A stretch of 64,000 bases of DNA from NCBI RefSeq assembly GCF_015550595.1, contig NZ_JADNBB010000010.1:62001-126000 (forward strand), read 5' to 3'. The stretch comes from Parabacteroides goldsteinii (GTDB taxonomy: Bacteria > Bacteroidota > Bacteroidia > Bacteroidales > Tannerellaceae). Shown here one piece after another: positions 35,321 through 55,573 of this stretch (position 1 is the stretch's first letter; every line of letters begins with the position of its first letter). Both the position numbers and the translations under genes were made by a program. Below the pieces are notes generated by a model, which was not told the origin of the DNA, did not search any database, and was given only the letters and a program-made list of their open reading frames with translations.

Positions 35321-35491
35321 CGACTGCCGGATCAGGGTTACATGTACCTGGTCCGGCGCTTTCTTGTCGCGGTTGAAACAAGATGCTTGAAAGAAGAATT
35401 AGAGAAAAGCAAGGTAATTGATTGGTTAATAGAAATGTATGTCTTTTAGTGTCTTTGGATACCGAGTAGCGAAATAGCAGGAAAAAGCGGA

Positions 35492-35525: not shown

Positions 35526-35655
35526 GTTCCAATAGACGAAAAGCAGAGCAAAACAATGACGTTAAACGTCTGGTTATAACGTTGTCTGTCTGTGGTTTGC
35601 ATTGTTCAGATAACTCATATTGAAAGTAATTTTACGAACTTAAAATGTGAGCGTT

Positions 35656-36891
35656 ATGAACAACGAACTAAAGGTGTACTTTTACCTTAAACGAGAGGGG
35701 AACACAGAAAGAACAGAAACAAATCCCGATGCCCTTTACCCGATTGTAGGTAAAATCATCATCGGTAACTCTATCGCACAATTTGGCTCAAAACTGAAAA
35801 TAGAAGAACGGCTTTGGAATGTAAAATCAGGTCGGGCAATTGGAAAAAGTCGTGTTGCCGTTGAACTCAACAGAGAGATTAATAAAATTAATCTCTCCAT
35901 ACACACGCACTACAGGGACATTTTAAAGCGGATAGGAAAAGTAACCGCTATTGAAGTGAAGAATGCTTTTCAAGGAATTGCCACCGCACAGAAAACGCTA
36001 CTTATCCTGTTCGGTGAAATGATGGAAGACTTCAAAGGAAGAATAGGTATTGACCGGGCACAATCCACCTACAAGCAATACGAAGTCCTTTATAAACAGC
36101 TTAAACAATTTCTTCGGGAAGAATACCATGTAGAGGATATTCCACTGACCGAGCTGGATTTACCTTTCATCGAAGCATTGAATTTCTTTTTCCGTATAAA
36201 ACGTAAGATGAAGCCGAGAACCGTTAAGGCTCGGATTGTCTTGTTAAACAAGGTCATACGTTTGGCGTTGCATCGAAGAATTATCACCCGTCCGCCTTTT
36301 GACGGTTTTGAATTGGAAAAGACCGAGCTTAAAAACAAATCACTCACCAATGATGAATTGGATTTGTTAATGAAAACTCCCCTTAAATCAGGTACACAAC
36401 GTTTTATCCGTGATATGTTTCTGTTCTCGGTGTTTACTGGCTTAGCTTATGCAGACCTGCATAAACTCTCTTGGAAAGATATTATTACCGAAGACGATGG
36501 TAGCCTATGGATTTCTGCAAATAGGCAAAAATCACATACGGAGTTTAATGTAAAACTATTGAATATCCCTATTCAAATCATGGAGTGCTACAAGGGGCTT
36601 GCTCCCGATGGAAAAGTATTTCCGCACATGAGTTTAGGACAGGTGAATGTCGGTTTAAAACGAATTGCGAGAAACTGTGGTATTAATCGGTGCTTATCCT
36701 ACCATATGGCAAGATACACTTTTGCTTCTCAAATTTGCCTTTCACAAGGCGTTCCGATTGAGAGTGTCAGCCGAATGTTAGGACATAAGCATATTCAGAC
36801 AACCCAACGCTATGCATGTCTTAACAATGAAAAGATAGGCAACGATATGCAGCAGCTATCTGCACGTCTTGCCACTAAATTCAACTTTTAA
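35656..36891 (+). CDS. Tyrosine-type site-specific integrase, first of tandem pair
   Basis: 411 residues from the ATG at 35656; a GTG three codons earlier is possible. An arm-binding N-terminus (WNVKSGRAIGKS), a SAM-like core-binding domain (SIETHYRD-like region to about residue 210) and a catalytic domain follow. Catalytic residues: Arg in FTGLAYADL context, H-x-x-R in YHMARYTFAS, LGHKHIQTTQRYA with the nucleophilic Tyr. Typical of Bacteroidetes element integrases. Twenty bases before the second integrase. The pair probably acts jointly in integration. Confidence 0.93.
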   Translation: MNNELKVYFYLKREGNTERTETNPDALYPIVGKIIIGNSIAQFGSKLKIEERLWNVKSGRAIGKSRVAVELNREINKINLSIHTHYRDILKRIGKVTAIEVKNAFQGIATAQKTLLILFGEMMEDFKGRIGIDRAQSTYKQYEVLYKQLKQFLREEYHVEDIPLTELDLPFIEALNFFFRIKRKMKPRTVKARIVLLNKVIRLALHRRIITRPPFDGFELEKTELKNKSLTNDELDLLMKTPLKSGTQRFIRDMFLFSVFTGLAYADLHKLSWKDIITEDDGSLWISANRQKSHTEFNVKLLNIPIQIMECYKGLAPDGKVFPHMSLGQVNVGLKRIARNCGINRCLSYHMARYTFASQICLSQGVPIESVSRMLGHKHIQTTQRYACLNNEKIGNDMQQLSARLATKFNF

Positions 36892-36911
36892 TAATCCAAA
36901 ATACAGGTATT

Positions 36912-38150
36912 ATGCAAAGCAATAGAAGCACTTTCGCTATACTCTTTTACTTAAATACCAGCAAAAAGAAAAAATCTGGCAACTGCCCCATCATGGGGCG
37001 TATCAGTGTGGATGGTAAAAGCTCAGCTTTCAGTACGGGTTTAGAGTTATCTCCCGAAAAATGGGATGCCAAACAGGGAGTAGCCACAGGCAAATCAAAG
37101 GAAGAAACAAACATTAACAAACAGATAGAAAACTATCGGGCTGAACTTATCCGCTACTATAAAACCTTACTGGAAAACAAAAGCTACATTACGGCTGAAA
37201 TCCTGAAAAACGCTATCAAGGGAATAGGTATAAAGCAGAACAGTTTGATACAAGAGTTTGCAGCCTTAATTGAGGAAAAACGGCAGTCTGTCGGTATTTT
37301 GATAGTGAGAACCACCTATGTACATCTTTGTCGTAGCTATTATCATTTGAAAGAGTTTTTACAATATAAATATGGGGTAACCGATATTCCGTTTACCCAA
37401 GTTGATTTCGATTTTATAGAATCGTATGTTTACTATCTAAAAGTCAATTTGCAATTAAGCGCAAGCACAACCAACAATACAATAAAACCATTACGTCGGG
37501 TTGTAATGCGAGCCTTAAACAGAGGTTGGATGTATCAAGACCCGTTCTTTGGTTATCGTCCGCAGCGGATAACAATTACACGGAAATGGTTATCTATGGA
37601 TGAAATAGAACGATTGATGCAAGTAGACATGAAGCATGAGAGTGCCAATTTTATTCGTGATATGTTTATATTTTCGACATTTACGGGGCTTGCCTATGTG
37701 GATTTAAAGAACTTACGACATGATAATATTGTACGGAAAGAAGATGGTAAACAATGGATTGTCCTGAACCGTCAAAAGACTGGAAGTACATCTTATATTC
37801 CACTACTTGATATTCCGTTACGGCTTATCGAAAAATACTGGGACACTGCTTTTGCTGGTTTTGGTGGAAGGGTGTTCAGGTTATGCACAATAGAAAATGC
37901 TGATATTCAGTTGAAAAAGATAGCAAAAGCAGCCAAGATTGATAAACGACTGACCTACCACATGGCAAGACATAGCTATGCAACCCTTTGTCTTTCAATG
38001 GGTGTTCCGATAGAAACGATTAGCCAGACATTAGGACATCGAAGCATTTCCACTACTCAAATATATGCGGAGATAACCCGTACCAAAATCAATGAGGATA
38101 TGACGAGTCTTGCAGAACGGATTGAAGGAAAATATGAATTGGTAAAGTAA
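36912..38150 (+). CDS. Tyrosine-type site-specific integrase, second of tandem pair
   Basis: 412 residues. Same layout as its neighbour: N-terminal arm domain (GRISVDGKSSAFSTGLELSPEKW begins near residue 31), core-binding domain, then FTGLAYVDLKNL, YHMARHSYATLCLSMGVP, LGHRSISTTQIYAEI with the catalytic Tyr. It is clearly a paralogue of the first integrase but diverged. Co-transcribed with it. Confidence 0.93.
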   Translation: MQSNRSTFAILFYLNTSKKKKSGNCPIMGRISVDGKSSAFSTGLELSPEKWDAKQGVATGKSKEETNINKQIENYRAELIRYYKTLLENKSYITAEILKNAIKGIGIKQNSLIQEFAALIEEKRQSVGILIVRTTYVHLCRSYYHLKEFLQYKYGVTDIPFTQVDFDFIESYVYYLKVNLQLSASTTNNTIKPLRRVVMRALNRGWMYQDPFFGYRPQRITITRKWLSMDEIERLMQVDMKHESANFIRDMFIFSTFTGLAYVDLKNLRHDNIVRKEDGKQWIVLNRQKTGSTSYIPLLDIPLRLIEKYWDTAFAGFGGRVFRLCTIENADIQLKKIAKAAKIDKRLTYHMARHSYATLCLSMGVPIETISQTLGHRSISTTQIYAEITRTKINEDMTSLAERIEGKYELVK

Positions 38151-38162
38151 GCACATCACAAC

Positions 38163-38447
38163 CAACATGTTTTTTTCCTTTTTTTCTCTGATAAACATCT
38201 CCTATATGGAAAGAATAAATAAGGCAACACTTTTTGGAAATTTACTCTTTTGAGGAACGAAAAAGGAAGAAATTTTCAAAAACCGCTTGCGGCTCGGTGT
38301 TGCCGTTTTATTCTTGGAATATACTTTTGTGTTCAGAGAAAGAAAGGATTTATTAAATTATTCCATTAAAAAATAAGATATTAGATTGGTTACTGTTATT
38401 GCGTAATTCTCACCATCTATGGAATAAAAGCTTAACTTTTTGAGGAA
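38163..38447. repeat. Long direct repeat, left copy, flanking the TIR cargo
   Basis: About 280 bp, clearly similar to 40953-41220. It contains an inner inverted repeat (GAATAAATAAGGCAACAC...GTGTTGCCGTTTTATTC), the block GAATATACTTTTGTGTTCAG, and on the minus strand the last 30 or so codons of an acetyltransferase-like gene (KKLSFYSIDGENYAITVTN). That remnant differs from the intact gene at the right copy by a 4-residue insertion, so the copies come from diverged relatives. It fills most of the 408-bp gap 38151-38558; nothing else is recognised there. Confidence 0.75.
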
Positions 38448-38558
38448 GAACATAAGTACTTAATACCCCAATGATAAAGCCACTCTTTAGGGGATGAACT
38501 TGTTGTTAATTTGTTAATTATTACTTACTAAACCCAATTATATGTTGCTATCAGGAGG

Positions 38559-39251
38559 TTATATTTCATCTAATTCTTTTCTCATTAGTTCAATAATTTC
38601 ATCTTTAATTTCTTTTATTACTAAGGCTGAGATTTCAATTTCATTTTGATTCTTTTTCATCCCATATTGGTCATTAGACATTATTTGTTTTGGCAAATCA
38701 TTCATCATTTTGGTTGCTTGCTCCATACTTTTGTCATATGCAAGCTCTAATAAATTCAACTTTTGTATAATTCTATCACTTGCTATTAAGCGGATTGTAT
38801 TCGTCTCTTGCTTAATTCTTATTAGACTTTCATTTGCTTCAAATGTCAATTTTTGTATTCTCTTTGACATTACAGATGCCGCATTATTTTCACCTTTTTT
38901 ATCATTTTTGCTAGAAGCATTTAGGAAATTTCTATTAAATTCATCTAAAATAGGCAATAGTTTTGCTTGAGTACTTTTGTTTGCTTCATTGCTAAATTGG
39001 TCTAAGAGTTTAAAAAATAATATATACTGTTCTTTTTTACTCTCATATTGATATTTCCGTTTAGATATTTCTAATTGAAAATCTTTTTTAATTCTTTCTG
39101 TTTCTTCTATTAATTTCTTATTCTCGCTTTTTAGGACTTTTATTTTAGCTTTTTCAGTTATATATGTTTTAATATACAGAATAAGCAATCCTAGAAATGC
39201 AAAAATAATATAAATTAAATATGGCTCTAAAAAACTCAAGTCAATATTCAT
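38559..39251 (-). CDS. Membrane-anchored coiled-coil protein, partner of the TIR protein
   Basis: 230 residues. One N-terminal membrane helix (residues 11-30: YLIYIIFAFLGLLILYIKTY) is followed by long coiled coil (residues 30-90 and 130-225), with no enzymatic motif. It lies 93 bp after the TIR gene in the same direction, between the same direct repeats, so the two form one cargo unit. Membrane location plus a TIR partner suggests a membrane effector or anchor in a defence pathway; this is inference. Low G+C relative to the host genes. Confidence 0.65.
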   Translation of the reverse strand: MNIDLSFLEPYLIYIIFAFLGLLILYIKTYITEKAKIKVLKSENKKLIEETERIKKDFQLEISKRKYQYESKKEQYILFFKLLDQFSNEANKSTQAKLLPILDEFNRNFLNASSKNDKKGENNAASVMSKRIQKLTFEANESLIRIKQETNTIRLIASDRIIQKLNLLELAYDKSMEQATKMMNDLPKQIMSNDQYGMKKNQNEIEISALVIKEIKDEIIELMRKELDEI

Positions 39252-39344
39252 TTTATTACTTTTTATATACTACTATTATATTTCCTCACTGTTAATGTCT
39301 AAACCGTACTTGATATTAAGATATTTATTAATAGGTGCTTTAGT

Positions 39345-40727
39345 TTATTTTTGTCCTTTTTCAAACTCTTCAAATGTTGAGTAATTTTTATGTTCTTTCC
39401 CTTTGATTTTTGCAAGTTTTGTTCCATCTATTCTCATTTGAATATAACTTACCAATTCATCAAATTTATTAATATGTAGATTATACAAGGTTCTTGTAGA
39501 TGCAATTTTGTAACGTTTCTTTAATTGACTTGCAAATACAGCATATTTTACTTGACCTTTTCCGACTTCATACTCTTTATACTCATTATAACGGCTAATT
39601 AGGTGTCCAATATAATTTGCTTTGACTGTATCTGCACCAATGCACCCTTCAGGATATTTCTGAATTACTTTTTTCTTCGTTTGGTTAATAATAATTTTAT
39701 TATTATCTCCAATAACTGCATTATCAATAGTATTATTGAAGTTAACTTTTATTTCTTTGGATTGACTATCAATCCCAGTACCTTTTAATAGTGCTAATTT
39801 GATTGAAGTAATATTTTTACACCAGTTCTTTTTATCTGAAAAATCTAAATAATTCAATCGCCTGATTAAATTATCTATAGGTTCTGAGAATTTCTGTCCC
39901 TTTGATAAAATAATTGGAATTATTCTATTGTTTTCAGCAAAACCCATAAACTGTGAGACTTCAAAATTGACCCAAGGTGATTTTGTGGAATGTTCAGAAA
40001 TAACAAGCAATAAATAATCCATTTCTTTTAATGACTCAGAAATTGTTTTTTGAATATCATCTCCTGCTAGTATTTCATTTTCATCAATCCAAAACTTTAA
40101 TGAATTATCTTTGGAAAGCTCTTCTTTCAATTCATGAACAAATGGCTTGTCTATACTGGAGTGGCTTATGAATACTTTTGCTTGAGGTAATTGTCGACTT
40201 ATGGTTTCTTTCAATATATTATTTACCTTATCAATTGGGATAATGTTTTTGCTAAGAAAAACGTCAGAAAGTTTGTTTACCAATCGTTTTGTATCCTTAG
40301 TTTCAATACTTTTATCTATGGCATTTTTGAGCTTTCTCGGAAATTCATTAAATGTCTTGCACTCAAAACCTGCAAAAAATGTTGGTTCATATTTATCTTG
40401 TTTTGATTTTAAGAGATTAAAGAAAATGAATGTAGGTTCTGTACCAATAGGAATTCCAAAAGATTTAAATTCATTTCTCATCTTTCGCCATTCTTCATCT
40501 GGAATAACTTTATCTTCATATATAAGAGGGGTGAATATATGAAAATTACGTCCGCTAAAAGATGAAATTTGCGTTTTATTCTTCTGAAAATATTCTACGA
40601 ATTCAGAATCCATAGAGGAAAAGAACGCCATCATGAATTTTGAGTTTTCAGGATTTAATTGATTTTCGTTAATAACATTCACAACTTCGTCAATCCATTG
40701 CTCTGTTGGTTGCTGTATCTGAAACAT
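39345..40727 (-). CDS. TIR-domain protein, probable NAD-cleaving defence protein
   Basis: 460 residues. Residues 1-175 form an unrecognised N-terminal domain (FMMAFFSSMDSEFVEYFQ; GRNFHIFTPLIY), perhaps a sensor. Residues 183-315 are a TIR domain: KVFISHSSIDKPFVHELKEEL, DENEILAGDDI, LLLVISEHSTKSPWVNFEV. Glu256 falls where the catalytic Glu of NADase TIRs lies. Residues 333-350 have a GDNNKI motif, and 360-435 carry a YPEGCIGAD...HLISRYNEYK C-terminal module seen in other predicted effectors. Bacterial TIRs of this kind cleave NAD or make signal nucleotides in anti-phage systems. Confidence 0.8.
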   Translation of the reverse strand: MFQIQQPTEQWIDEVVNVINENQLNPENSKFMMAFFSSMDSEFVEYFQKNKTQISSFSGRNFHIFTPLIYEDKVIPDEEWRKMRNEFKSFGIPIGTEPTFIFFNLLKSKQDKYEPTFFAGFECKTFNEFPRKLKNAIDKSIETKDTKRLVNKLSDVFLSKNIIPIDKVNNILKETISRQLPQAKVFISHSSIDKPFVHELKEELSKDNSLKFWIDENEILAGDDIQKTISESLKEMDYLLLVISEHSTKSPWVNFEVSQFMGFAENNRIIPIILSKGQKFSEPIDNLIRRLNYLDFSDKKNWCKNITSIKLALLKGTGIDSQSKEIKVNFNNTIDNAVIGDNNKIIINQTKKKVIQKYPEGCIGADTVKANYIGHLISRYNEYKEYEVGKGQVKYAVFASQLKKRYKIASTRTLYNLHINKFDELVSYIQMRIDGTKLAKIKGKEHKNYSTFEEFEKGQK

Positions 40728-41133
40728 CTTTATTTATTTTTTATATCAAACTTTATTTTTCATATGTGTGTTACTGATAACTCTTAAATTGTACATTTTA
40801 TTAAAAGTGTACAATGAACAAAAGTAACAATCAAAAATTTGATGAGCACTTTATTGGTGACAAATTTAGCAAATATTTGTGATACAGCTAGATTTACAGC
40901 CGAAAAACAGTTCTTCATATCCAATTTAAAATACAAAATTTCAATCTATAGCAGGTTTTTCTTTTTTTCCTCTGTTAAACATTTCACATTTGAAAACAAT
41001 AAATAAGGCAATACTTTTTGGAATTTATTTTTTTAGGACTGAAAGAGAAAGAAATTTATTAAAACCCGTAGGGCTTGATGTTGCCGTTTTATTCTTGGAA
41101 TATACCTTTGTGTTCAGAGAAAGAAAGGATTAA
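40728..41133. other. Gene-free leader of the TIR gene and right long direct repeat
   Basis: 40728-40950 is the AT-rich leader of the TIR gene, with a palindrome (40789-40814) and a minus-strand -7 box TACTTTTG (40819-40826). 40953-41133 is the non-coding part of the right long direct repeat. No gene. Confidence 0.6.
40789..40814. promoter_or_regulatory. Palindrome in front of the TIR gene
   Basis: TTGTACA and TGTACAA flank a 12-bp AT-rich centre that is itself partly symmetric (TTTATTAAA). It lies just downstream of a minus-strand -7 box TACTTTTG (40819-40826), so a repressor bound here would block transcription of the TIR gene. Confidence 0.45.
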
Positions 41134-41220
41134 TTAAGATTGTTCCATTGAAAAATAAGATATTAGATTGGTTACTGAATTCTCGCCATCTATGGAATAA
41201 AAGCCTAATTTCTTGGCAAA
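40953..41220. repeat. Long direct repeat, right copy
   Basis: Matches 38163-38447. Here its right part is the intact 3' end of the acetyltransferase-like gene (41134 onward, minus strand). Confidence 0.75.
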
Positions 41221-41535
41221 TACTCCGCTTTTGTCGTTGGCACACTCAATGCCGATATAATTGAAACCATATTTCTGGGCTACTGCGGTCAAAAAACTAA
41301 GAAAGTGCGTTCCGTGCCCTATCCGTTCTTTGCTAAAACTCAATCGGGCTATAATCAAACAATCAGGTGGAAAACAGCTTTCAACCTTTCTAATACGCAA
41401 ATATAAATCTACCCGGCTATTTCTTCGGGTGGCTATTATATTATCCACTGTCAGCCATACAAGCGATTTACGATACTTGAAACGTTCCATCAGATAGCGG
41501 TCTATATCGGCTATTAGTTCTTCATATTCAGTCAT
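41134..41535 (-). CDS. GNAT-like acetyltransferase of the mobilization module
   Basis: 133 residues. DCLIIARLSFSKERIGHGTHFLSFL resembles the acetyl-CoA-binding V/I-x-x-x-x-R/Q-x-x-G-x-G/A loop (SKERIGHGTHF). GFNYIGIECANDKSGVFAKKLGFY is the GNAT C-terminal pattern (family x-N-x-x-x-x-x-F/Y-x-K-x-G-F). The substrate is unknown. Its start overlaps the mobB stop by 4 bp (ATGA). A diverged copy of its 3' end lies in the left long repeat. Confidence 0.65.
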   Translation of the reverse strand: MTEYEELIADIDRYLMERFKYRKSLVWLTVDNIIATRRNSRVDLYLRIRKVESCFPPDCLIIARLSFSKERIGHGTHFLSFLTAVAQKYGFNYIGIECANDKSGVFAKKLGFYSIDGENSVTNLISYFSMEQS

Positions 41536-42473
41536 CGTCTAATCTCTTTCTTCTTTTTCTTTTTACGTTTCTGTACTTGTAATTCTTCTGTCGGTGTAGC
41601 ATTGTTATTGTTGCCATTTCCCAATGAGAAAATAGACAAAAGAGAATCATCACTACTATTGTGCTGCTGATTGTTCGAGTGTCTATTTTCTTCCTTGTTG
41701 TCAAAATTGTAAGAAATATTGTTTTCTTTTTCATTGGATTGGAATACATCTTTTTTCTTTTCGTCAGTAAAATATTGTTTTGGCTCTTTCAACTCCTGCT
41801 CCTGCATTCTCAGTTTATCGTCCATGCTTCCGTTCTTCATCGTGTTGGAATACTCAAAGGATTCGGATAATTGGCGGTTGTAACTGAATAGTTTATCAAA
41901 GCCTTGTTCCGCTTGTCGAAAGAGATTCACACGGTCAAACCCACCTTTTATTACTCCGTTTTTGGTATTTTTGTGCTTGGTAAGCGGTGATAGCTTCTTT
42001 TCGTTGGTTTGGTCTTTACGGCTGACAATCAAATGGCAGTGCATATTCAGTTCGTTATTGGAACGGCTACGGTCAAAATGTATCTTTCCGTAAAACTTTA
42101 TATCCGTTTCGGATAGTCCTTTGTTGAAGTTCTTGGCATATTCAGGAATAAACACTTCCCGAACATACCGTTTCATGGCTTCGGCTTTCTCCTGTTCGGT
42201 GTTCCCCATTGCCCGAAGCTCGCTTTCCGACGGGCTGACGTGGATAGCGAAAAACTTAGCATCTGTTTTCAACAATTGTCCGATATTGGTGTCTATATCT
42301 TTAACAACCTTTGATTTGTAGATATTATCCTCCGTCAAATTGAAAAAGCCATCGGTATAGATTCCTTTCTCTATACGTTCTAAATCCTCGTGCTCCATGT
42401 ATGAGGTTAGTTGTCGGCTACTTCCTGCATTGTTATATGTTCCGCCCGATGGTGGGGCAAAATCTATGTGCAT
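41532..42473 (-). CDS. MobB-type relaxase (DUF5712 family)
   Basis: 313 residues. The start MHIDFAPPSGGTYNNAGSSRQL is the family hallmark (shown to residue 20 only: MHIDFAPPSGGTYNNAGSSR). HFDRSRSNNELNMHCHLIVSR contains the His-x-His pair expected of a metal-dependent nicking enzyme. The C-terminal 80 residues are Asn/Lys-rich and ends in KRKKKKKKEIRR. It should nick at oriT, 0.7 kb upstream, with BfmA. Four bases after bfmA. Confidence 0.85.
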   Translation of the reverse strand: MHIDFAPPSGGTYNNAGSSRQLTSYMEHEDLERIEKGIYTDGFFNLTEDNIYKSKVVKDIDTNIGQLLKTDAKFFAIHVSPSESELRAMGNTEQEKAEAMKRYVREVFIPEYAKNFNKGLSETDIKFYGKIHFDRSRSNNELNMHCHLIVSRKDQTNEKKLSPLTKHKNTKNGVIKGGFDRVNLFRQAEQGFDKLFSYNRQLSESFEYSNTMKNGSMDDKLRMQEQELKEPKQYFTDEKKKDVFQSNEKENNISYNFDNKEENRHSNNQQHNSSDDSLLSIFSLGNGNNNNATPTEELQVQKRKKKKKKEIRR

Positions 42474-42477
42474 GGCT

Positions 42478-43062
42478 CTATGTGTTTATTAGGTTGGTAA
42501 TTTCAGCCTTTAGGCTCTCTTTTCGTTTACTATCCATCACACCGCAAGCGGAAAGTTCAGAATAGAGCTGTATCAGTTGAAGCAGCTTCTTATAGTCCCG
42601 TTGATGTATTTGATAGAGTGCCGAGAGTTGTTTTCCCTGCTGATTTATTACATCGGCGTGCTTGCCGAATTGTTCACTTACTTTTTGCAGTACGGCTGTT
42701 TGTTTCCCCTGACTGGATTCCAATTGAGAAAGAATAAGTGTTTCCAATGTCTTGCCAATACCCTCAAACCGAACTGCAATAGAATTGGCGGTTCGTATCA
42801 TGGGATTTAGTTGTTCTTCCTCGTAGTGGCGGATGAAGCGGATAATATTATCCTGCCGTTTGTTTATCTTCGCCAACTCCGATTTTACGGATTCCGGTGC
42901 TTCCGATGGGTTGATACACGCTTTATCAATATAGACAAATGCCAACCGGACTATTTCACCCTTTTTCAGCGAATAGCGTTTGCAGAGTTTATCTATCAAC
43001 TTTCCCGTCTGTCGGTCTATCCCAATGGTGGTAAGCGTGGATATATTACTGGTCTTATCCAT
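42478..43062 (-). CDS. BfmA/BtgA-family mobilization protein
   Basis: 194 residues from MDKTSNIS; an ATG 20 codons upstream lies in the leader. The N-terminal part (LTTIGIDRQTGKLIDKLCKR; SLKKGEIVRLAFVYI) is the ribbon-helix-helix-like DNA-binding region of Bacteroides MobA-type proteins. The rest is coiled coil (residues 70-175). It binds oriT as an accessory to MobB. Confidence 0.85.
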   Translation of the reverse strand: MDKTSNISTLTTIGIDRQTGKLIDKLCKRYSLKKGEIVRLAFVYIDKACINPSEAPESVKSELAKINKRQDNIIRFIRHYEEEQLNPMIRTANSIAVRFEGIGKTLETLILSQLESSQGKQTAVLQKVSEQFGKHADVINQQGKQLSALYQIHQRDYKKLLQLIQLYSELSACGVMDSKRKESLKAEITNLINT

Positions 43063-43129
43063 GATTATAAGTTTTTTATAAGGGAAATGAGATTTATTCA
43101 ATTGATTATAAGTAAAATACATTTCTGAC

Positions 43130-43300
43130 TTATAATCACTGTTATAAACGGTTACGAATGTAACCTGTTAAAGCCGAAGGCTTTGCCCCGCAGGGCAAGA
43201 GGGAAGAACAGGACTTGTCCAGTTCCCTCTTGCTTCATTTAGCGAAACGAGCCGAGCCACAGGGCGAGGCGGTTTCTGCTAAATGGGGAGTGGTGGCACT
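43130..43300. other. Probable origin of transfer (oriT)
   Basis: A stack of inverted repeats lies immediately upstream of bfmA-mobB: GGTTAC/GTAACC (43150-43165), AAGCC/GGCTT, TTGCCC/GGGCAA, GCAAGAGGGAA with TTCCCTCTTGC, and CATTTAGC.GAAAC with GTTTCtGCTAAATG (43236-43285). The position and structure fit oriT; the nic site cannot be named. Confidence 0.6.
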
Positions 43301-43316
43301 TCATCAGGCGGTAACA

Positions 43317-43667
43317 TTACCCACCCTGTTTTGCTTCGGCTTGCGTATCAAGCTGATTTTCCTTTTTGAACCGTTCATAGGTCTTACTATCGGCATTTTC
43401 TTGAATAAATGCCCGGATGTCGGCTGCCCGATAATAGGTCTTATGGCTAATCATAAAGTAAGGAAGTTTGCCACTTGCCCGATACCGTTGCAGGGTTCGG
43501 AAAGAAACTTTCAGCAGAAACGCTAAATCCTGATTGTCTAACAACTTGTCGGTAGGGTCTAATACGTTGTCGGTATTGATTAGCGATTTCAGGTCTTGCC
43601 CGATTTCAGAGAGTTTTTTCGACAGTCGTTCCATCCACTTATCGAAGTTTTCGTTATCTATATACAT
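43317..43667 (-). CDS. Excisionase-like HTH protein
   Basis: 116 residues. LLDNQDLAFLLKVSFRTLQRYR is a MerR/HTH_17-type helix-turn-helix (about residues 42-63) followed by GKLPYFMISHKTYYRAADI, the wing. It is the small HTH protein that accompanies Bacteroides mobile-element integrases. It may work as a recombination directionality factor or regulator. Confidence 0.8.
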   Translation of the reverse strand: MYIDNENFDKWMERLSKKLSEIGQDLKSLINTDNVLDPTDKLLDNQDLAFLLKVSFRTLQRYRASGKLPYFMISHKTYYRAADIRAFIQENADSKTYERFKKENQLDTQAEAKQGG

Positions 43668-43815
43668 TTTGCTTCACTTTTTTAGTTCAACATTATTATT
43701 TTCAATCGATTGATGAAGCAAAATTCGGCAGAATAGAGAAATAAAAATAGAGGAGTCCGGTGTTGACCCCTCTATATCATAAATGCAAACAGTTATTTAT
43801 CAAGCCATTACAAAA

Positions 43816-44217
43816 TTATCTTTTTTCATCTTTGTTTTTCAGTGCTTCTGCTTGTCGTTTCTTATGTTCTTTAATAAGAACTGCTTTTAAAGCATCCAGT
43901 GTCTTGGTGAGATTGTATGGCTTGCGTTTGAAAAGTTCGCTCTGACGGTCATAGATACCGTTAAAACTAAATCCAAAAGCCCGTTCAAAGACTTCTGAAA
44001 TTGCAATGATAGATGGTTTCTTTCCTGCATTATCAACAATACCACCTAATAACATTAGGGCTGAAAGAATTTCGGTCATACCCATAATTCCAAGATATTG
44101 GAACTTAGGTATGACCGATAAAGACGATTCAAATGTGGGTAAGGTTTCCAAATGAAACAGTTCAGAATGTTGAATTTTAAGTTTCAATAGTTCCAGTTCT
44201 GCATTGATAATTGCCAA
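43816..44217 (-). CDS. RteC-like protein, C-terminal domain only
   Basis: 133 residues. TEILSALMLLGGIVDNAGKKPSI and ISEVFERAFGFSF...YDRQSELFKRK...LDALKAVLI follow the pattern of the RteC C-terminal winged-helix domain, which activates excision genes in CTnDOT-type elements. Full RteC is about twice this long, so this is a short form or a remnant. Stop 149 bp upstream of the HTH gene. Confidence 0.55.
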   Translation of the reverse strand: MAIINAELELLKLKIQHSELFHLETLPTFESSLSVIPKFQYLGIMGMTEILSALMLLGGIVDNAGKKPSIIAISEVFERAFGFSFNGIYDRQSELFKRKPYNLTKTLDALKAVLIKEHKKRQAEALKNKDEKR

Positions 44218-44239
44218 TGCCTTTTGTGAAAACAGTTTT

Positions 44240-44473
44240 TTAAGCGCATTTTTCCCCCTGCCCGTAAAGAGGTATTGTTCTAAGTGAAGCTATCTCGATA
44301 CGGGTAGCTGTCAACGTGCGGTAGATAACAGAATAGTCTGTACCATTGCTCACATTTTCGATATATTCAAGAAATTCCTCATAAGCATTTTGCATTTCTT
44401 CATTAGTTACTTCTTGCGATGTTTCAGACAATAGTCTTAAAAACCTCATACCTAATAATTCATTCATACACAT
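44240..44473 (-). CDS. Small unknown protein upstream of the rteC-like gene
   Basis: 77 residues, acidic, helical (SETSQEVTNEEMQNAYEEFLEYI). No domain recognised. Followed after 22 bp by the rteC-like gene in the same direction. It may be the N-terminal part of a split rteC-type gene or an independent small protein. Confidence 0.5.
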   Translation of the reverse strand: MCMNELLGMRFLRLLSETSQEVTNEEMQNAYEEFLEYIENVSNGTDYSVIYRTLTATRIEIASLRTIPLYGQGEKCA

Positions 44474-44559
44474 AAAATTTTAATGTTGATATTAATTATC
44501 TGATTAAATAATTTGTTTTATGCAGAATGATTTTGCTATATTGAGCTTATTTTAGAACT

Positions 44560-45084
44560 CTATTTTTCTAACCATACTGTTGGATAGTTTAAAGCTACTT
44601 TGATAGCTTCCATCTCAGCGCTATGCCACATTTCATGCTTAAAACACCATGATAAAGCTTCATACTTATTATTAGCTACTGGATGTTTAAATGGGATAGG
44701 CTCTAATTGCTCGAATAATATATCATCATTTAATTGTGTTAAATTATGTATACATATTTCATTAATAGCATCGAACTGTTCTTTTAACTTATATGCTGGA
44801 ATCAAGTCCTTTTCTACTGACCTATGCAAAGTTCCCATACCGTTGAATATCTTTACATAATCAACAATAGGTATTAATTCAGTGATTTTAGTATTTCTTC
44901 CAGTGATACATGTAATAGCATGGAAGTTTTGACTAATCATCAAGTGCCCAATTTGCCAAGCAAAGTTAGAATCTGTACTTTGAGGAATTGTGTACCATAA
45001 ATCTTGCGGAATTTCTGAAATCAAGCGATTTACAAAATTCCGCGATTCAATAATCTGCTCTTTTAAAAAATCAATCTTTCTCAT
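44560..45084 (-). CDS. DinB-family protein
   Basis: 174 residues, four-helix-bundle DinB/YfiT fold. The metal-site histidines are in FAWQIGHLM (near residue 47) and in KHEMWHSAEMEAI (near residue 152). Members are thiol-S-transferase-like metalloproteins often under stress or drug regulators. An operator palindrome shared with tetR lies 16 bp upstream of its ATG, so it is the target of that regulator. Its own terminator was not identified. Confidence 0.85.
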   Translation of the reverse strand: MRKIDFLKEQIIESRNFVNRLISEIPQDLWYTIPQSTDSNFAWQIGHLMISQNFHAITCITGRNTKITELIPIVDYVKIFNGMGTLHRSVEKDLIPAYKLKEQFDAINEICIHNLTQLNDDILFEQLEPIPFKHPVANNKYEALSWCFKHEMWHSAEMEAIKVALNYPTVWLEK

Positions 45085-45099
45085 CTTTATAAATTTATA

Positions 45100-45115
45100 T
45101 ACTTATTAGTAAGTA
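45100..45115. promoter_or_regulatory. TetR operator in front of dinB
   Basis: TACTTATTAGTAAGTA: two 6-bp arms around TTAG. 15 of 16 bases equal the copy at 45703-45718 in front of tetR. Two such sites at both target promoters make this a confident operator assignment. Confidence 0.75.
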
Positions 45116-45136
45116 AGTTTTTTAGCTAAAAAAATA

Positions 45137-45682
45137 TTAGATATTCAATAGTCCTTCTTGTATGGACTTATATACGTCATTTTTTAATACTTTATTCATT
45201 TGCAAGGAAGATAATAATGCAGAATGAACCATGTATGCCTTTGTTCTTGGTGTTTCTGTAAATGAAAAAACATTAGTTTTTAGTCCATTGTCTAATAATG
45301 TTGTAAGCCATTTTAGAATTGTAGTTACCAATCCCTTCAACTCTTTCTGCATGTTTTCAGGTAAAGTGTCATAAGATGGAGAAAGTGAACCGACTATGCA
45401 AACCCAATGATTATCAATAAAACTATCGTGCATATGGATGTAATTAGAAAACTGCAATTTGTAATCTAAGCTTTCCCAAGTTTTAGTTAACTCGTTGAAA
45501 GCATTAAGATTCCTCCTTATTATCTCCACTCCCAAATCCGACTTTGAAGGGAAATAATAATGGATAGCTGCATTCTTTATATTCAATGCTTTAGATATGT
45601 CAGCGTAGCTAAAAGAATTGTAGCCTATAGAGCGAATTAATTCACTTCCTAACCGTATTATTTCACTTCTTGTATCATTCAT
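45137..45682 (-). CDS. TetR-family repressor
   Basis: 181 residues from MNDTRSEI; an upstream in-frame ATG would place the operator inside the gene. The N-terminal HTH reads YNSFSYADISKALNIKNAAI followed by HYYFPSKSDL, as in the AcrR/YcdC type. The C-terminal ligand domain is unassigned. It should repress itself and dinB through the palindromes at 45703 and 45100. Gap to dinB 52 bp. Confidence 0.88.
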   Translation of the reverse strand: MNDTRSEIIRLGSELIRSIGYNSFSYADISKALNIKNAAIHYYFPSKSDLGVEIIRRNLNAFNELTKTWESLDYKLQFSNYIHMHDSFIDNHWVCIVGSLSPSYDTLPENMQKELKGLVTTILKWLTTLLDNGLKTNVFSFTETPRTKAYMVHSALLSSLQMNKVLKNDVYKSIQEGLLNI

Positions 45683-45686
45683 GATG

Positions 45687-45718
45687 CAAATATAATCAAA
45701 TTTACTTAGTAGTAAGTA
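45687..45718 (-). promoter_or_regulatory. tetR promoter region with operator
   Basis: Minus-strand -7 box TATATTTG (45687-45694), 4 bp before the tetR ATG region, and the palindrome TACTTAGTAGTAAGTA (45703-45718) just upstream in the expected spacer. Binding would cover the promoter. Confidence 0.65.
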
Positions 45719-45785
45719 TATTCTATAAAAAAGATGCATTATCTTTGTGCGAAAGTTATTTGAAGCAATGGCAAAGTACAGCAGA

Positions 45786-46173
45786 CTAATGAAGTTCGCT
45801 CGTTTCTATATCGTTACCCATTGTTTTACTATTCTTCTTCAAAAATCTATTATTCAATAGATTACAATCACATTTCTTGTTACGCAGAATACAAAAGGCT
45901 ATCTGTTCCGAGGAAACTCCCAAACGCATTTTCAGTTGCGAACGGATGATACTGCCACGAAAAGTGGCCCTGTTCAGATCGGTAAGATCCGGCTCTTTTA
46001 CATTTGTATATATAAAAGATTCTATCAGAAAATAATAATCGCCCTTATCGTCCCCCTTCATCAAATGCAAAACGAAAAACGTTTTTCACCGCATTTCCAG
46101 TGTCGGAACCAATGGCATACAAATATGACATTCCGGTCCACAGCAGAGCCAATATTAATACTAGTTTCCTCAT
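45786..46173 (-). pseudogene. Small secreted protein gene, frameshifted and cut at its 3' end by the element
   Basis: From an ATG at 46173 the minus strand encodes a signal peptide (MRKLVLILALLWTGMSYLYA) and runs to a TAA at 46045. A second frame starting before this at a GGGGG run (46052-46056) continues as GDDKGDYYFLIESFIYTNVK and on to a stop at 45786. Removing one G joins them into a protein of about 128 residues with a Cys-containing C-terminus. The last four codons come from the element. Family not recognised. Its only upstream promoter is in the invertible segment next to it. Confidence 0.6.
45801..45819 (+). repeat. Right attachment core (attR) of the mobilizable element
   Basis: CGTTTCTATATCGTTACCC, partner of 35507-35525. 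It lies in the last codons of the interrupted small gene. Confidence 0.7.
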
Positions 46174-46202
46174 TTTCAAACAAATAATCGCTTCCGCTTT
46201 AG

Positions 46203-46247
46203 TTTACTTCATGGCTCTTTTATAGGATAAAAGAGCCATGAAGTAAA
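46203..46247. repeat. Invertible-segment repeat, left (palindromic)
   Basis: A 21-bp perfect palindrome around AGG: TTTACTTCATGGCTCTTTTAT, AGG, and its complement. The central AGG gives the site a direction. The other site has CCT at its centre on the same strand, so the two sites are inverted. Confidence 0.75.
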
Positions 46248-46576
46248 TCACAGAATGCAACTACTTGATAATATTAGATATAAGTATCATTTTATCAACT
46301 GATTATGTTTCTGCAATATGAATTTATTATGTAATAATATTTTACATAGTATATACAAAATGATTTACAATGCTTCATTAATATTATTTGCCGAAACTTG
46401 TGTAGAAACAATGGCAGTTTGAATGAGATTCATTGTTTTTATATCATAAGTTATCTGTTGATTATTAGAATAATACAGTTTTAGGATATTGTTAGAGCCG
46501 TTATACTACCTGCTGAAACATCAAATTATGCAGAAACATTTCCTGAAAAGCTTGAATATTATATTTAGCGAAAATA

Positions 46577-46608
46577 TTTGAGTATATGAAAATAATAACT
46601 TATATTTG
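46577..46608 (+). promoter_or_regulatory. Promoter inside the invertible segment (now facing right)
   Basis: TTTG (46577-46580), 20-bp spacer, TATATTTG (46601-46608), an exact Bacteroidetes consensus match. It points right, toward the 3' end of the recombinase gene, away from the small-gene ATG at 46173. No perfect TAnnTTTG is found on the other strand of the segment, so the present state is read as OFF. Confidence 0.7.
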
Positions 46609-46674
46609 CCATTGATTTCGAGAACAAAAAACAATATTTTATATTTTGAAATCAGAATTAAAAATTGAAAGGTA

Positions 46675-46708
46675 TTTACTTCCGGCTCTTTTATCCTATA
46701 AAAGCCCC
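46675..46708. repeat. Invertible-segment repeat, right
   Basis: TTTACTTCC then GGCTCTTTTATCCTATAAAAG then CCCC. It matches the reverse complement of the left repeat over nearly the whole length, differing mainly at the AT/C and AG/- positions. Imperfect on its own right side. Confidence 0.75.
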
Positions 46709-46757
46709 TTTTTAAACATCTCATTTTCCTGTTATTTGTATTATTAAATTTCTGCAC

Positions 46758-47993
46758 TTACAAGCGTCGCCCGTTGATTCTCTTTTTGTAGCTTTTTATT
46801 ACACGGCTGTTGGCTTCGTCCAGTACATCGTGATTTATCTGGCGCAAATAAACGCGTGTCGTACTTTCCGAACCATGCCCCATGCAGGTGCTGATTACAG
46901 ATATCGGTATTCCTTCTTCCTGTGCCAGGCTGGCCCACGTATGCCTGGCGGCATAAAAGGTCAATGGAAAAGGGAATTGCAGGATCTCACCGACCTGCAG
47001 GATCCGTTTATTCAATTTTCGCTGGATAAGACGATAGGCCTGATAGCTGTCGCCCTCACGCAACATAGGAAGCAGATAAGGCGAAGCTGGGTCGGCATAT
47101 TTATCTATCAACAGACTAAGGGGTTGCTCCACTTTCATTTCCAATAATTGCCCGGTCTTTTTACGCCGATAGGAAAGAATGTTGATCCGCAAATTCTCCT
47201 TTTTCAGATAACACATGTCCACAAAAGCCATCCCACGCGCATAGAAACTGAACATAAAAACATCACGGGCCAGTTGTATCAGTTCACTCTCTCCGGACAG
47301 ATCCACCTGCTCGATCATCAATATCCGTTTGGCAGAAACAGCGCGCTTGGCTGTTTTCTCCTTTTTAAAAGTCACCTCGCTAAAGGGTTCGAGCTCCGAA
47401 AGAACCACACCCATCATTTTTGCCTTATTATAAATTGCACGTAACTGATACAGATACGCCCATATCGTATTGGGTTTACACCCCTTTTGCCTGAGATAAT
47501 TACGGTACAGCGCAACCAGACGGGGAGTTAAATTACCAAAAGTAAATAAAGGATCGTTCAGAAACTCATCGAAAGCACGGATCGCGTTCTTATAATTAGA
47601 CGAAGTCCCGTCCTTACCCTCTTCTTTAAGTTCGGTAGTCAGATAGTCGGTAAAAACAAAGATATTGCTCAGGTCGTTGTAGCGCGTATACATCAATATG
47701 ATATCATCGACGGAATAGTCTTTTTTACCGGCATTCAATGTATTGCATATATTAGTTACAATTTCTCTCAGCTTTGCTACATACTCCGTGGCTTCGCGGA
47801 TATATGCTACCCGCTCCTTTTTGCGGCTTCCGGCACGCAAAGTTTCTTTTTCCGGATTAAATTCTCCTTTATGCAGACGGTACGGCGTATAAATATCCCG
47901 CTTCCGCCGGTAACGGATCACCTGAATAATTAACGGATATCTGCCGTCTTTATATTCTCTCGATGTATTCATCCTGATTTTGATAGATGTCAT
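46758..47993 (-). CDS. Tyrosine recombinase beside the invertible segment (Tsr-type)
   Basis: 411 residues. N-terminal arm region (DGRYPLIIQVIRYRRKRDIY), core-binding domain (residues 110-210), catalytic domain with FYARGMAFVDMCYLKKEN, TFYAARHTWASLAQEEG and MGHGSESTTRVYLRQI (Tyr nucleophile). Orphan Bacteroides recombinases of this kind invert promoters next to their gene. It is not part of the 10.3-kb element, which ends at 45819, and it has no transfer genes beside it. Its stop lies 50 bp from the right inverted repeat. Confidence 0.9.
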   Translation of the reverse strand: MTSIKIRMNTSREYKDGRYPLIIQVIRYRRKRDIYTPYRLHKGEFNPEKETLRAGSRKKERVAYIREATEYVAKLREIVTNICNTLNAGKKDYSVDDIILMYTRYNDLSNIFVFTDYLTTELKEEGKDGTSSNYKNAIRAFDEFLNDPLFTFGNLTPRLVALYRNYLRQKGCKPNTIWAYLYQLRAIYNKAKMMGVVLSELEPFSEVTFKKEKTAKRAVSAKRILMIEQVDLSGESELIQLARDVFMFSFYARGMAFVDMCYLKKENLRINILSYRRKKTGQLLEMKVEQPLSLLIDKYADPASPYLLPMLREGDSYQAYRLIQRKLNKRILQVGEILQFPFPLTFYAARHTWASLAQEEGIPISVISTCMGHGSESTTRVYLRQINHDVLDEANSRVIKSYKKRINGRRL

Positions 47994-48247
47994 TTTCCCT
48001 CCATTTATTTATAAACTCAAAATAATAGATGAAGATACAACGGGAAAAAGAGGAGAATTGTTGACTGTCCGATCCAGACATAGGGTAATTTAACCGGGAG
48101 AACAAAAAGGGGATCTAATAAATTGAATAAAGATAACTCTTTGCAACTAAAAACCACAAACAGTTGGCAAAATATTCAATATTATTCATTTTTTATAACA
48201 ACCCATTCTATCCGAATCGCTCGGATAAAAGACTTTTTCGGCATTAT

Positions 48248-48374
48248 CTGCCGGGTAATGGGAATTAAGTCCTAGATAATGGCCATCAGGTCGGGGATAA
48301 TCGGCAGTGAAGTCCGGGATAATTGAAACTAAGTCCGCGACAGCCGGCATTAGGTCCGAGGTAATGGAAGCCGG
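48248..48374. repeat. Six tandem 21-bp imperfect repeats
   Basis: Units start near 48248, 48269, 48290, 48312, 48333 and 48354 (one spacing is 22, the others 21). Core: GTCCgGGATAATgg with variable ends. The 21-bp period keeps a frame, but the 22-bp step breaks it, so a coding role is unlikely. Function unknown. Confidence 0.7.
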
Positions 48375-48811
48375 CCGCCGAAAAAAGACGATCGGGCACC
48401 GGAAAAGCACTTTTCATAGTCGTTATTTAAGGTAAAACAGACTTTTCTGCCACTAACCTCTTCCTGCATCCATCTCTTTTTCAACTAACATTCTGCCACA
48501 TAAAAATCACCGGCACTATCTCCCTGTCCCATTAACTCAGGGAACTTGCTGCCCCGCATATCAAAACAAACACATTCCCCCCTCTCACCCCACCAAAATG
48601 ACAACCCCCAACTCCCGCACAGCCGCATATTTCAGAAGCCATCCGGATATAGGCACATACAGAGCAAGGAAATGAAGGGTGAAATGACAATTTGATAAAA
48701 GATTTACTCCAGCAAATTGAGATTAAAACTCATCGCTTAGAAAAAGGTGAGCTATTCACAAATGATACACAATGGCACATCGGCATATTCTTAAAAATAA
48801 AAGCCCCGGGA

Positions 48812-49741: not shown

Positions 49742-50294
49742 AGAAAGAATATGAACTATTAATAAATGGAACACGGACAACACGGAACACGCGGATGATC
49801 GCGGATAAGGATTAATTCTCAATGTTTGTTCCGTGAAATTCCGTGTGTTCCGCGTCATCCGTGTTCCATTCTTTTGACTCACATCTGCCAATAATTGAAA
49901 CAACTTATTTTAATAGGTTTACCCTATAATATCTATTTGATTTATTCTATAAAATTGATATCTTTACAACTGTCTCCTCTTTCTTTACTACAGTAAAATT
50001 TACCAACATAATAAAACGGCTAATCTCAACAAATGTATTCTATTATTGACAGTTTGTATAACAGCCCTCACAAATAGTCTGCCTACTTTTATCCCGGTCT
50101 ATTGCGGTAGCTATTTGCGGAGTCGGTCTGATTTCTAACAGAATTCTAATCACCGGTGGCATGCGTTGTTTATTAAGAAGTGCCATATCGCAAATTTTAC
50201 GTACCCCATCAAAAACAGGCTTCAGCCGTTTCCGGGCTACAACTATTCAGATCAGCCGTATGTTTTACTTATGATTATATAATGCATAAACAGT
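49742..50294. other. Gene-free region with intergenic inverted repeat
   Basis: No gene called. 49765-49870 holds a composite inverted repeat (AATGGAACACGGA/TCCGTGTTCCATT outer arms, with inner GGAACAC units), a palindromic intergenic element and possible terminator of rpn. 49900-50294 shows a few short minus-strand frames of under 40 codons and no clear promoter. Confidence 0.5.
49765..49870. repeat. Composite intergenic inverted repeat
   Basis: Outer arms of 13 bp (AATGGAACACGGA) are perfect. Inner GGAACACgcGGATGA-like units are repeated in both directions. REP-like elements of this sort occur in many Bacteroides intergenic regions. Confidence 0.65.
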
Positions 50295-53556: not shown

Positions 53557-55554
53557 TTATTCGCGAATGCAACGGATACTGAAGCCGTTTACACGGGAAA
53601 ATAAAGCGTTGTTGAGAGACCCGGAGTCTGGAGTATCATCGGGATAATCTACCTGCTCCGGGTCTATATAAAGAGCCCAGCAATTTGAGCCGTCGATACT
53701 GTTGAACCACCAGTATGCCAACTTGTCTTTTTCTTTAAAAACAGCCTGGTCATCCCTTCTGCCTCCGGGACTTCCGATAAAGCCGGCTATTTTCAGTGCC
53801 CTGGCTACTTTGGTATTTCCCAGATAGTTTCTTAATTTATCCCAGTCGGCCAGATGATCAGGTACTTTCCAGCCGGAGACGGGAGATTCTGATGATGCTA
53901 AAAAATGACGGCCATTATATAATACGCCATACTGTTCGCGCACATATTTGTTTGCAGCATCGGCACCATCCGGGAAGCCATAGATTGCACAACCGGCTCT
54001 TCCGTTTTTCCATTGGTCTTCTGTCAGATCAGAGGCTATTGCCTGCCCCTGTCCATCCGTCAGCGTTCGCAGATTTTCGGCCATCCAGTACTGGGAGCCT
54101 ATTTTCATTATCTTGTAGGCATTCCCTTCGTAGTCGGTAATACGGCAAGGAACACACCCCAGGCTGTTGTCTCCGGTATAACCTAAATAATTGCCGGTGA
54201 AGAAGTCTGTGCCGTTTTCCGTGAACAGGCTGGTAGCGGCAGGATCGCTGCCGGCGGTATATTGCAGGGTTTCATAGTCTATCGAGCCGCCGTTATCCAA
54301 CACCAGGCCTTTCCCGGTACTTTGGTTGTAGATGTTATGCGGGTAGAAAACAATAGCCGGTTTTCCGGCATCGAAAGAGTATCCGGGGATAAATTCGTGG
54401 CAGAGTTCACCTACTTTCACACCTTCAAACAAAACCTCGAAAACAAAGGAGGCAGTGGTTGAGGGAGCCTTCAGTTCGTATAGCATAGTCACTTCCAGGG
54501 GTAGGGTTATGGGTTGGTTACCCGCTGTAGGCAAACTTAGCGTGGATGTTCCGGACAATACAGGATCGGAAGCTCCGGCAAGAGGGGCAGTAATAGTAAT
54601 TGTTCCTCCTGTTTTCGATTGATTATACAATGCGGATATAGCCCAGCCATTCAGGGGAGTACAAACCGGAGACTGGTTATTGTCTGTTCCGTCGCATGTA
54701 AAGGCGATTTCCTTTGTTTCGCCACGGCGGAAAAAAAATACTCCTTCGACTTCCAGTTTTGCCCCTGCAGCTCCGGTCCACTCCGGAACTTCGAATGTAG
54801 TCCCGTCAGCCAGATTGAATAAAATGTATCCATTACTTTTTTTTACGCTCTCAAATAACGGGTCTCCATCCTCTCCTTTTGCCTGGAAAGAATTACCAGA
54901 ATCGTCCGTTATTTCGACAGGGCCGGTTCCCGTATCTATTGTCCAGTTGCCGGCGGCATTGACTCCAACTACCGGTGTTATGCCGTCTTTACCCTTTGCC
55001 GTCACCTTTTGTCCGTTATCATCGAGGATAAAGTTTTTCTCCTGTGACCCGACGGATACTGCCCAGTACCATTCACCGTCTGTATCCTGCTTCACGGAAA
55101 CCAATGGAACAACGCCATTCTCACCTTTATCGCCCGGCTGACCGGGTTGTCCCGGATTACCCGGCTCTCCCGGAGCACCATCGTTTCCGGGAGTACCATC
55201 GCTTCCATTTTCACCGTCATTTCCGGGAGTACCGTCGGCACCGTCTTCCCCTTTTACGCCATCGTCCCCTTTGGCACCGTGGCGGATCGTAATGGTTCCC
55301 GCTTTAGCGAAAGTAATCGTGTAGCCGCTACCGTCGGTAAGCTCTTTGAAGCCGGTTACATAGTCGCCGCTCTCCCCGACGTCTATCAGTATTTTTAATG
55401 CGGTGATACTTTCGTTCATCTCCCCGCACATTTTTTCGAGACCGGCTGCCTGTTCTTCCATCTCAGCCTGATATTTGTACACCTCGTTCATCTCCTTCTG
55501 AACGCAGGAGGAAACGAACAGGCAAAGCAGTAATACTTTTATGATCTTGTTCAT
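53557..55554 (-). CDS. Collagen-like FISUMP lipoprotein 1
   Basis: 665 residues from MNKIIKVLLLCLFVSSC; two upstream ATGs overlap the previous gene. After the lipobox come a coiled coil (residues 10-45), a PL29 N-terminal/DUF4988-type domain ending GSGYTITFAKAGTITIRHG, and 18 Gly-X-Y triplets (GAKGDD to GDKGENG). Repeats of the xGEWYWxV/I type follow, then beta-sandwich domains. The C-terminal FISUMP domain (about residues 510-665) has IGSQYWMAENLRTLTDGQG and SIRCIRE. Surface-anchored; adhesin-like role inferred. Co-transcribed with the two paralogues. Confidence 0.8.
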   Translation of the reverse strand: MNKIIKVLLLCLFVSSCVQKEMNEVYKYQAEMEEQAAGLEKMCGEMNESITALKILIDVGESGDYVTGFKELTDGSGYTITFAKAGTITIRHGAKGDDGVKGEDGADGTPGNDGENGSDGTPGNDGAPGEPGNPGQPGQPGDKGENGVVPLVSVKQDTDGEWYWAVSVGSQEKNFILDDNGQKVTAKGKDGITPVVGVNAAGNWTIDTGTGPVEITDDSGNSFQAKGEDGDPLFESVKKSNGYILFNLADGTTFEVPEWTGAAGAKLEVEGVFFFRRGETKEIAFTCDGTDNNQSPVCTPLNGWAISALYNQSKTGGTITITAPLAGASDPVLSGTSTLSLPTAGNQPITLPLEVTMLYELKAPSTTASFVFEVLFEGVKVGELCHEFIPGYSFDAGKPAIVFYPHNIYNQSTGKGLVLDNGGSIDYETLQYTAGSDPAATSLFTENGTDFFTGNYLGYTGDNSLGCVPCRITDYEGNAYKIMKIGSQYWMAENLRTLTDGQGQAIASDLTEDQWKNGRAGCAIYGFPDGADAANKYVREQYGVLYNGRHFLASSESPVSGWKVPDHLADWDKLRNYLGNTKVARALKIAGFIGSPGGRRDDQAVFKEKDKLAYWWFNSIDGSNCWALYIDPEQVDYPDDTPDSGSLNNALFSRVNGFSIRCIRE

Positions 55555-55573
55555 GTCTTTGCTTTTCATATTC

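Follow-up and report, generated by a model that had tools for sequence, protein, structure and literature searches.

The window, by which we mean the whole 64,000-nucleotide stretch of Parabacteroides goldsteinii DNA under analysis, very likely contains a recombinase-linked local invertible promoter, which is drawn in the OFF orientation, has a broken target gene and is now probably an orphan. The identification as a recombinase-linked invertible promoter follows from an exact pair of oppositely centred sites, the anatomy shared with related loci and the inverted alignments among the latter. The first-pass annotation had proposed a recombinase-driven invertible promoter in the OFF state that controls the gene starting at 46173. 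The anatomy, the relatives and the inverted alignments uphold the switch itself, but not its control of 46173, which is the start of a split remnant with internal loss and a change of frame. The features of the switch are as follows.

46203-46247: left recombination site, a perfect 45-nt palindrome with arms at 46203-46223 and 46227-46247 and the asymmetric centre AGG (46224-46226)
46238-46683: candidate invertible segment, the 446 bp separating the matched arms
46577-46608, plus strand: promoter-like TTTG-N20-TATATTTG, directed at the 3′ end of the recombinase gene (OFF)
46684-46708: right recombination site, centre CCT (46695-46697), of which 46684-46704 is an inverted match to the left site (21/21)
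46758-47993, minus strand: tyrosine recombinase, 411 aa, open throughout; Pfam PF13102, PF00589 and PF17293

The sequences at 46217-46237 and 46684-46704 constitute an exact 21-bp inverted repeat, with no mismatches and with opposite centres (AGG/CCT). The inverted palindromic repeats with these centres, earlier described as bounding about 0.45 kb, are thus borne out, and a short segment bounded by inverted repeats is what is expected of a local invertible promoter. In its outer half, the right site is degenerate and matches the left site less well than at 46684-46704. Among 300 first-order Markov resamplings of positions 45001-48500, exact inverted repeats of at least 15 nt with starts less than 800 bp apart arose in 7/300, the longest reaching 17 nt, while a length of 21 nt was attained in 0/300; the 21-bp inverted pair exceeds chance expectation. 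When the 6.5-Mb genome (85 contigs) was searched with the site pattern GGCTCTTTTATNNNATAAAAG, zero-mismatch matches were restricted to these two sites, with no second exact pair, and the site pair is unique in the genome. A further 18 genomic places match with two or three mismatches, against ten for a backwards control pattern. Mpi exemplifies a global arrangement, in which one recombinase inverts promoters at many sites across the genome. Global promoter inversion is also named in the available text of PMC4747536. The present genome does not show this pattern, as no other site with fewer than two mismatches occurs in its 6.5 Mb. In the one assembly of the source genome examined, the segment is present as a single copy in the OFF orientation and no inverted copy was found. 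A search of 59 genomes, the source genome included, for the switch DNA returned off-locus matches of only 31-45 bases, in five other genomes.

The tyrosine recombinase gene ends 50 bp from the right repeat, as had been noted (46758-47993 on the minus strand, relative to 46708), and thus a full-length, open tyrosine recombinase adjoins the segment, as in local invertible promoters. The protein carries the arm-binding, SAM-like and catalytic domains of phage-type integrases. Residues R253, K279, R350, H351, H373 and Y382, a set which we take to include the catalytic residues, are invariant in 29/29 sequences of an alignment comprising the recombinase and 28 relatives. No curated NCBIfam cut-off was reached by this protein. 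Its nearest relative among 393 genomes searched is found in another family of the order (locus L047; about 48-49%), while the best identity within the genus is 39% (38 genomes, its own included), and single-protein scans of genome contigs and viral contigs confirmed no close relative. The L047 locus has the same layout, with repeat arms of 34 bp (two mismatches by score) located 19 bp beyond the matched portion of the recombinase and a 524-bp segment with a motif facing the recombinase.

The TATATTTG element at 46601-46608 is the only TAnnTTTG on either strand of 46007-46757, with TTTG located 20 nt upstream; a further plus-strand TAnnTTTG begins at 45999, outside the segment. The available text of PMC4747536 gives TAnnTTTG as the Bacteroides -7 consensus, and the promoter is predicted to be functional from its sequence. 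At the sequence level, the segment thus contains the outward promoter motif of a local invertible promoter, and its reported direction, away from 46173, is correct. Computed centre-to-centre inversion places the -7 box at 46313-46320, reading leftward. As such, the geometry of the earlier proposal that a flip would aim the promoter at 46173 holds, but the view of 46173 as a usable target is not supported, the gene being broken. In the mechanism we propose, the tyrosine recombinase encoded at 46758-47993 would recombine the inverted palindromic sites at ~46225 and ~46696, and in so doing would turn the intervening promoter between the OFF state, directed at the 3′ end of the recombinase gene, and the inverted state, directed leftward across the left site.

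Evidence that this anatomy is a general one was obtained from the surroundings of related recombinases, where a pair was counted if inverted repeats of at least 15 bp occurred within 1.5 kb, 80-700 bp apart in the genus (Parabacteroides) set or 80-720 bp apart in the public-record set. The genus search yielded 39 recombinase places, 30 of them with loci used for the count. A repeat pair is located downstream of the recombinase in 22/30 loci, which include the present locus and one segment counted twice (shared by L023 and L039), and upstream in 1/30, while resampled downstream sequence gave a pair in 1/600. The public-record set derives from an alignment-based scan and comprises the best 80 of at least 591 stretches, from which 18 loci were dropped (12 with less than 600 bp downstream and six already in the genus set); here, a downstream pair is present in 45/62 loci and an upstream pair in 1/58, with 1/310 for resampled sequence. 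Downstream pairs are lacking in 8/30 of the genus relatives and, within the best 80 of at least 591 stretches, in 17/62 of the public-record relatives. The promoter motif is outward in 28 versus four instances over 28 genus-side switches, five of which stem from the DUF3575 search described below; these orientation counts cover 36 loci including L047 and L048, 28 of them with a pair, and leave out L039. For the 45 switches of the public-record set (from the best 80 of at least 591) the corresponding values are 40 versus five.

Both promoter orientations occur among related loci. Five loci in which the motif is ON-facing (L127, L135, L102, L110 and L032) were aligned to related loci, and inverted segment alignments were obtained for two of the five (28 loci aligned; pairs listed only with one of the five ON loci as query). 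The L127 segment is inverted relative to six loci (L134, L158, L168, L131, L109 and L125) and that of L135 relative to seven (L125, L149, L158, L131, L168, L134 and L115). In these 13 inverted pairs, the segment, or at least 65 nt of it, is reverse-aligned at 69-82%, while the recombinase-side flanks are direct in 13/13 and the distal flanks in 9/13. The L135/L125 pair is ambiguous in that a direct alignment at 69% likewise spans the segment. No inverted alignment to related loci was found for L102, L110 and L032, which are ON by motif. As the inverted alignments come from related loci of different genomes, they point to inversion since common descent and not to switching within a single strain.

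Several additional observations were made on these relatives. The segments of L116, L140, L142, L150, L151 and L154 are at least 85% alike across hosts, including Bacteroides xylanisolvens, with an identical 19-bp repeat in 5/6 of these loci, and may be carried by a mobile element. In L025, L028 and L036, the region 3′ of the recombinase contains multiple inverted-repeat pairs or a third copy of the repeat. By eye, NusG/UpxY-like and polysaccharide-export ORFs could be recognized past the switch in L061, L064, L065, L066, L077 and L078, and large helicase/methyltransferase-like, DnaK-like and other defence-locus-like genes in L062, L067, L071, L076, L063 and L075.

The gene at which the inverted promoter would be aimed is represented by three pieces, distributed on both sides of an inserted element.

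46045-46173, minus strand: target piece A, a 42-codon 5′ remnant with a signal-peptide-like start (by eye), then a stop
45888-46046, minus strand: target piece B, in a different frame, matching positions 72-122 of the DUF3575-family head-protein profile (4.5e-15; search of 3 sequences)
45873-45880, plus strand: right 8-bp direct repeat TTTCTTGT, at the right end common to L050 and L051
35368-45880: integrated mobilizable element with two integrases, a TIR protein, a relaxase, a BfmA-type mobilization gene, an HTH gene and TetR
35360-35367, plus strand: left 8-bp direct repeat TTTCTTGT, one of two plus-strand copies in 34001-47000
35231-35374, minus strand: target piece C, at the element's left end, matching profile positions 124-170
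34961-35335, minus strand: HU-type DNA-binding domain (Pfam PF00216; 8.3e-22)

The head-protein profile, 466 positions in length, was built from seven proteins, namely that of L082 and six others, with DUF3575 in every one. Pieces A, B and C fit this profile in order, with A a weak match (positions 4-40; 5.2 bits) and C recovered both by tblastn (9.8e-9) and by the profile (7.2e-13; search of 1 sequence). About 31 positions are absent between A and B, together with a frame change, and B is separated from C by the 10.5-kb mobilizable element. No intact DUF3575 head gene was found, profile positions 4-40, 72-122 and 124-170 of 466 being all that is represented, in pieces. The minus-strand secreted-protein gene previously called at 46173 is thus not complete, its 42-codon ORF being a remnant of a broken DUF3575-type head gene. 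Piece C reads stop-free into the HU-type domain, and this junction is taken as a deletion scar. A tblastn comparison of the L082 protein against the window gave no significant match for the DUF3575 part.

In genome G032, L082 codes for a 438-aa homologue with DUF3575, followed by a DUF5119 gene and, two genes on, by a fimbrillin-like Mfa_like_1 gene. When the next three L082 proteins were compared to the window by tblastn, DUF5119 and fimbrillin followers were not found, although diverged genes could escape such a search. The best matches were to DUF5119 (E 7.5e-4; 75 aa at 24%, positions 1221-1445, antisense to an unrelated ORF) and to the fimbrillin (E 0.93), with no match near piece C. Among nine head-gene loci, a repeat pair and recombinase ORF are located just upstream in five (L083, L084, L087, L089 and L090), L083 and L084 lying in the source genome itself, while L082, the closest intact relative of the target, and L085, L086 and L088 have no upstream repeat pair. 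DUF3575 was identified in 10/10 scanned head genes, a set drawn from the two types of switch locus and three switchless loci, as well as in L082, and recombinase relatives of the longer type likewise precede DUF3575 genes in L068 (an ON locus), L069, L074 and L080. Fimbrillin genes are mentioned among inverton neighbours in the available text of PMC11892184. The promoter, we infer, originally served the head gene of a DUF3575/DUF5119/fimbrillin (Mfa-like) operon. The ON orientation would once have driven this fimbrial operon, and today would drive a stub and possibly also the outermost genes of the inserted element. Any order of events at the locus is one that we infer.

The inserted element has the integrase, relaxase and direct-repeat ends of an integrative mobilizable element. 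Its relaxase gene scores above the cut-off of PF18976 and below that of the NCBIfam MobB model, and the BfmA-type mobilization gene is above its cut-off. The 8-bp TTTCTTGT repeat was recognized on inspection of the two junctions and verified over 34001-47000; direct repeats of at least 11 bp that could represent an attachment pair were not found between the element flanks. The end sequences are common to elements in G012 and G430, in which the left-end-like sequence starts at window position 35376, the right end is alike up to about TTTCTTGT, and the two ends are 9.5 kb (G012) and 7.8 kb (G430) apart. The shared ends and the TTTCTTGT repeats delimit an element of ~10.5 kb here, with boundaries backed by two other copies. 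One cargo protein (39345-40727) contains a TIR domain, with matches to Thoeris- and TIR-retron-type models that fall below the NCBIfam cut-off. The tetR gene is bracketed by an inverted repeat (45082-45120 and 45698-45736; 39 nt, 77%), which was set aside as a second switch because its arms, by eye, resemble operator-type palindromes. Elsewhere in the window, three tandem large ORFs occupy 53557-59692, the two scanned carrying collagen-repeat, DUF4988 and Fib_succ_major domains, and a 41-nt inverted repeat (80%; ACACGG/CCGTGT-rich) is located at 49765-49870, after a PD-(D/E)XK transposase-family gene.

Two explanations that dispense with a switch were considered. Both palindromes can fold as RNA on the plus strand (left site -30.1, right site -5.0 kcal/mol) and a T-run follows the right site on this strand, so that they might be read as terminators or hairpins uninvolved in recombination. 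The left site has no T-run, however, and the terminator scan listed neither site; moreover, the asymmetric centres are opposite in the two sites, the paired layout recurs beside most of the related recombinases examined and almost never upstream of them, and inverted segments occur among the relatives, all of which make this explanation very improbable. It is extremely improbable that the recombinase is a mobile-element integrase and the palindromes its attachment sites, as might be suggested by its integrase-like domains and the mobile element adjoining it, since that element has two integrases and ends (35360 and 45873) of its own, while the palindromes are unique and lie in inverted orientation 0.45 kb from each other.

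An invertible promoter is accordingly the preferred reading, and two variants concern its present state. With the head gene cut down and split by a mobile element, the switch apparently no longer has a target, and the orphan reading is probably the correct one. The recombinase and sites look intact, and the segment may therefore still flip as an orphan, a prediction for the present copy that we draw from the sequence. A form of the orphan reading with OFF frozen by decayed sites or a silent recombinase is possible though rather unlikely. The right outer half-site is mismatched and, with the target broken, there is little reason to keep flipping; against this, the exact 21-bp match between the sites is retained and the recombinase is full-length with all conserved residues present. 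It is also conceivable, but improbable, that the switch has been captured by the element, a proposal compatible with the orphan reading, in which the flipped promoter would transcribe phase-variably through the stub into tetR and beyond. The tetR gene (45137-45739) and the next ORFs are located on the minus strand, and integrative and mobilizable elements are named downstream of invertible promoters in the available text of PMC8748976. Read-through of the stub toward tetR would be possible, as a consensus scan of the minus strand identified no intrinsic-terminator-like site between 46320 and 44000. The tetR gene, however, has its own promoter-like TATATTTG just upstream (45687-45694, minus strand), and an untranslated remnant of ~430 nt would invite early termination.

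Unexpectedly, the OFF orientation predominates in the family as a whole. For the 73 repeat-bearing loci (28 + 45, the latter from the best 80 of at least 591 stretches), the motif faces the recombinase in 57, while in the remaining 16 it faces away in six, both ways in two and neither way in eight. L048, one of the six away-facing loci, rests on a motif 231 bp from the site. With similar segments merged, 47 face the recombinase versus six away (part from the best 80 of at least 591; binomial p 6e-9, a value that is too small because the loci are related). One explanation, which we regard as doubtful, is that the OFF state is an active one, in which an antisense promoter directed into the 3′ end of the recombinase gene would lower recombinase output and stabilise OFF, while ON would lift this brake and favour return. 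Such a brake would explain the 57 facing versus six away among the 73 loci (45 from the best 80 of at least 591), as well as the persistence of a switch after loss of its target. A cost of client expression would also fit the OFF bias. According to the available text of PMC4747536, OFF is prevalent for the local Tsr19 promoter in the wild type and this prevalence disappears with plasmid-borne recombinase; suppression of the recombinase in the wild type, or some other control, is suggested as a reason. Within the literature searched, no paper combined an inverton with antisense. The family-wide OFF-facing bias represents a simple, testable pattern.

The predicted switch joins a large, recognisable family and its likely lost client could be identified. 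The locus suggests that a phase switch can persist beyond the operon under its control. If left with one site pair and nothing useful to drive, a recombinase would furthermore provide a clean natural test of how the ON/OFF ratio is set when there is no selection on the product.

Among the most similar arrangements are the DUF3575 loci, where the same order of recombinase, switch and DUF3575 head gene is observed in L083, L084, L087, L089, L090, L068, L069 and L074 (Parabacteroides) and in L080 (another family). The distance from motif to proximal site is 74 bp in L083 and L089 and 75 bp here. By contrast, the recombinases of L083-L090 are shorter (304-317 aa where whole, versus 411 aa), the site sequences differ, and the head gene, broken here, is open in the compared loci except in L084 (two ORFs, without Pfam scan). 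The genes following the head gene in the compared loci were named by eye, L082 excepted. In L084, only 117 aa of the recombinase are open, and in L089 it is in two ORFs; both look broken, which suggests that loci of this kind may frequently decay.

Invertible promoters beside tyrosine recombinases are already known in the Bacteroidales (PMC4747536, as far as its available text extends). Compared by description, the Tsr19/BF2766 and IVp-I system of Bacteroides fragilis in that text likewise consists of a tyrosine recombinase with an invertible promoter immediately downstream, a TAnnTTTG -7 element and a prevalent OFF state in the wild type, but serves an exopolysaccharide operon and a distant promoter, whereas a single exact site pair and a broken fimbrial-type client are found here. 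The entry of elements into invertible-promoter loci is likewise known from the available portion of PMC8748976, which describes resistance genes or elements inserted downstream of invertible promoters. In those switches, as here, the region that the promoter serves has been invaded by a mobile element, but their clients function in glycan synthesis, the switches are carried by conjugative elements and the promoter is taken to serve the new genes, in contrast to the fimbrial remnant of the present locus. What is new here is a further member of this family with a wrecked client.
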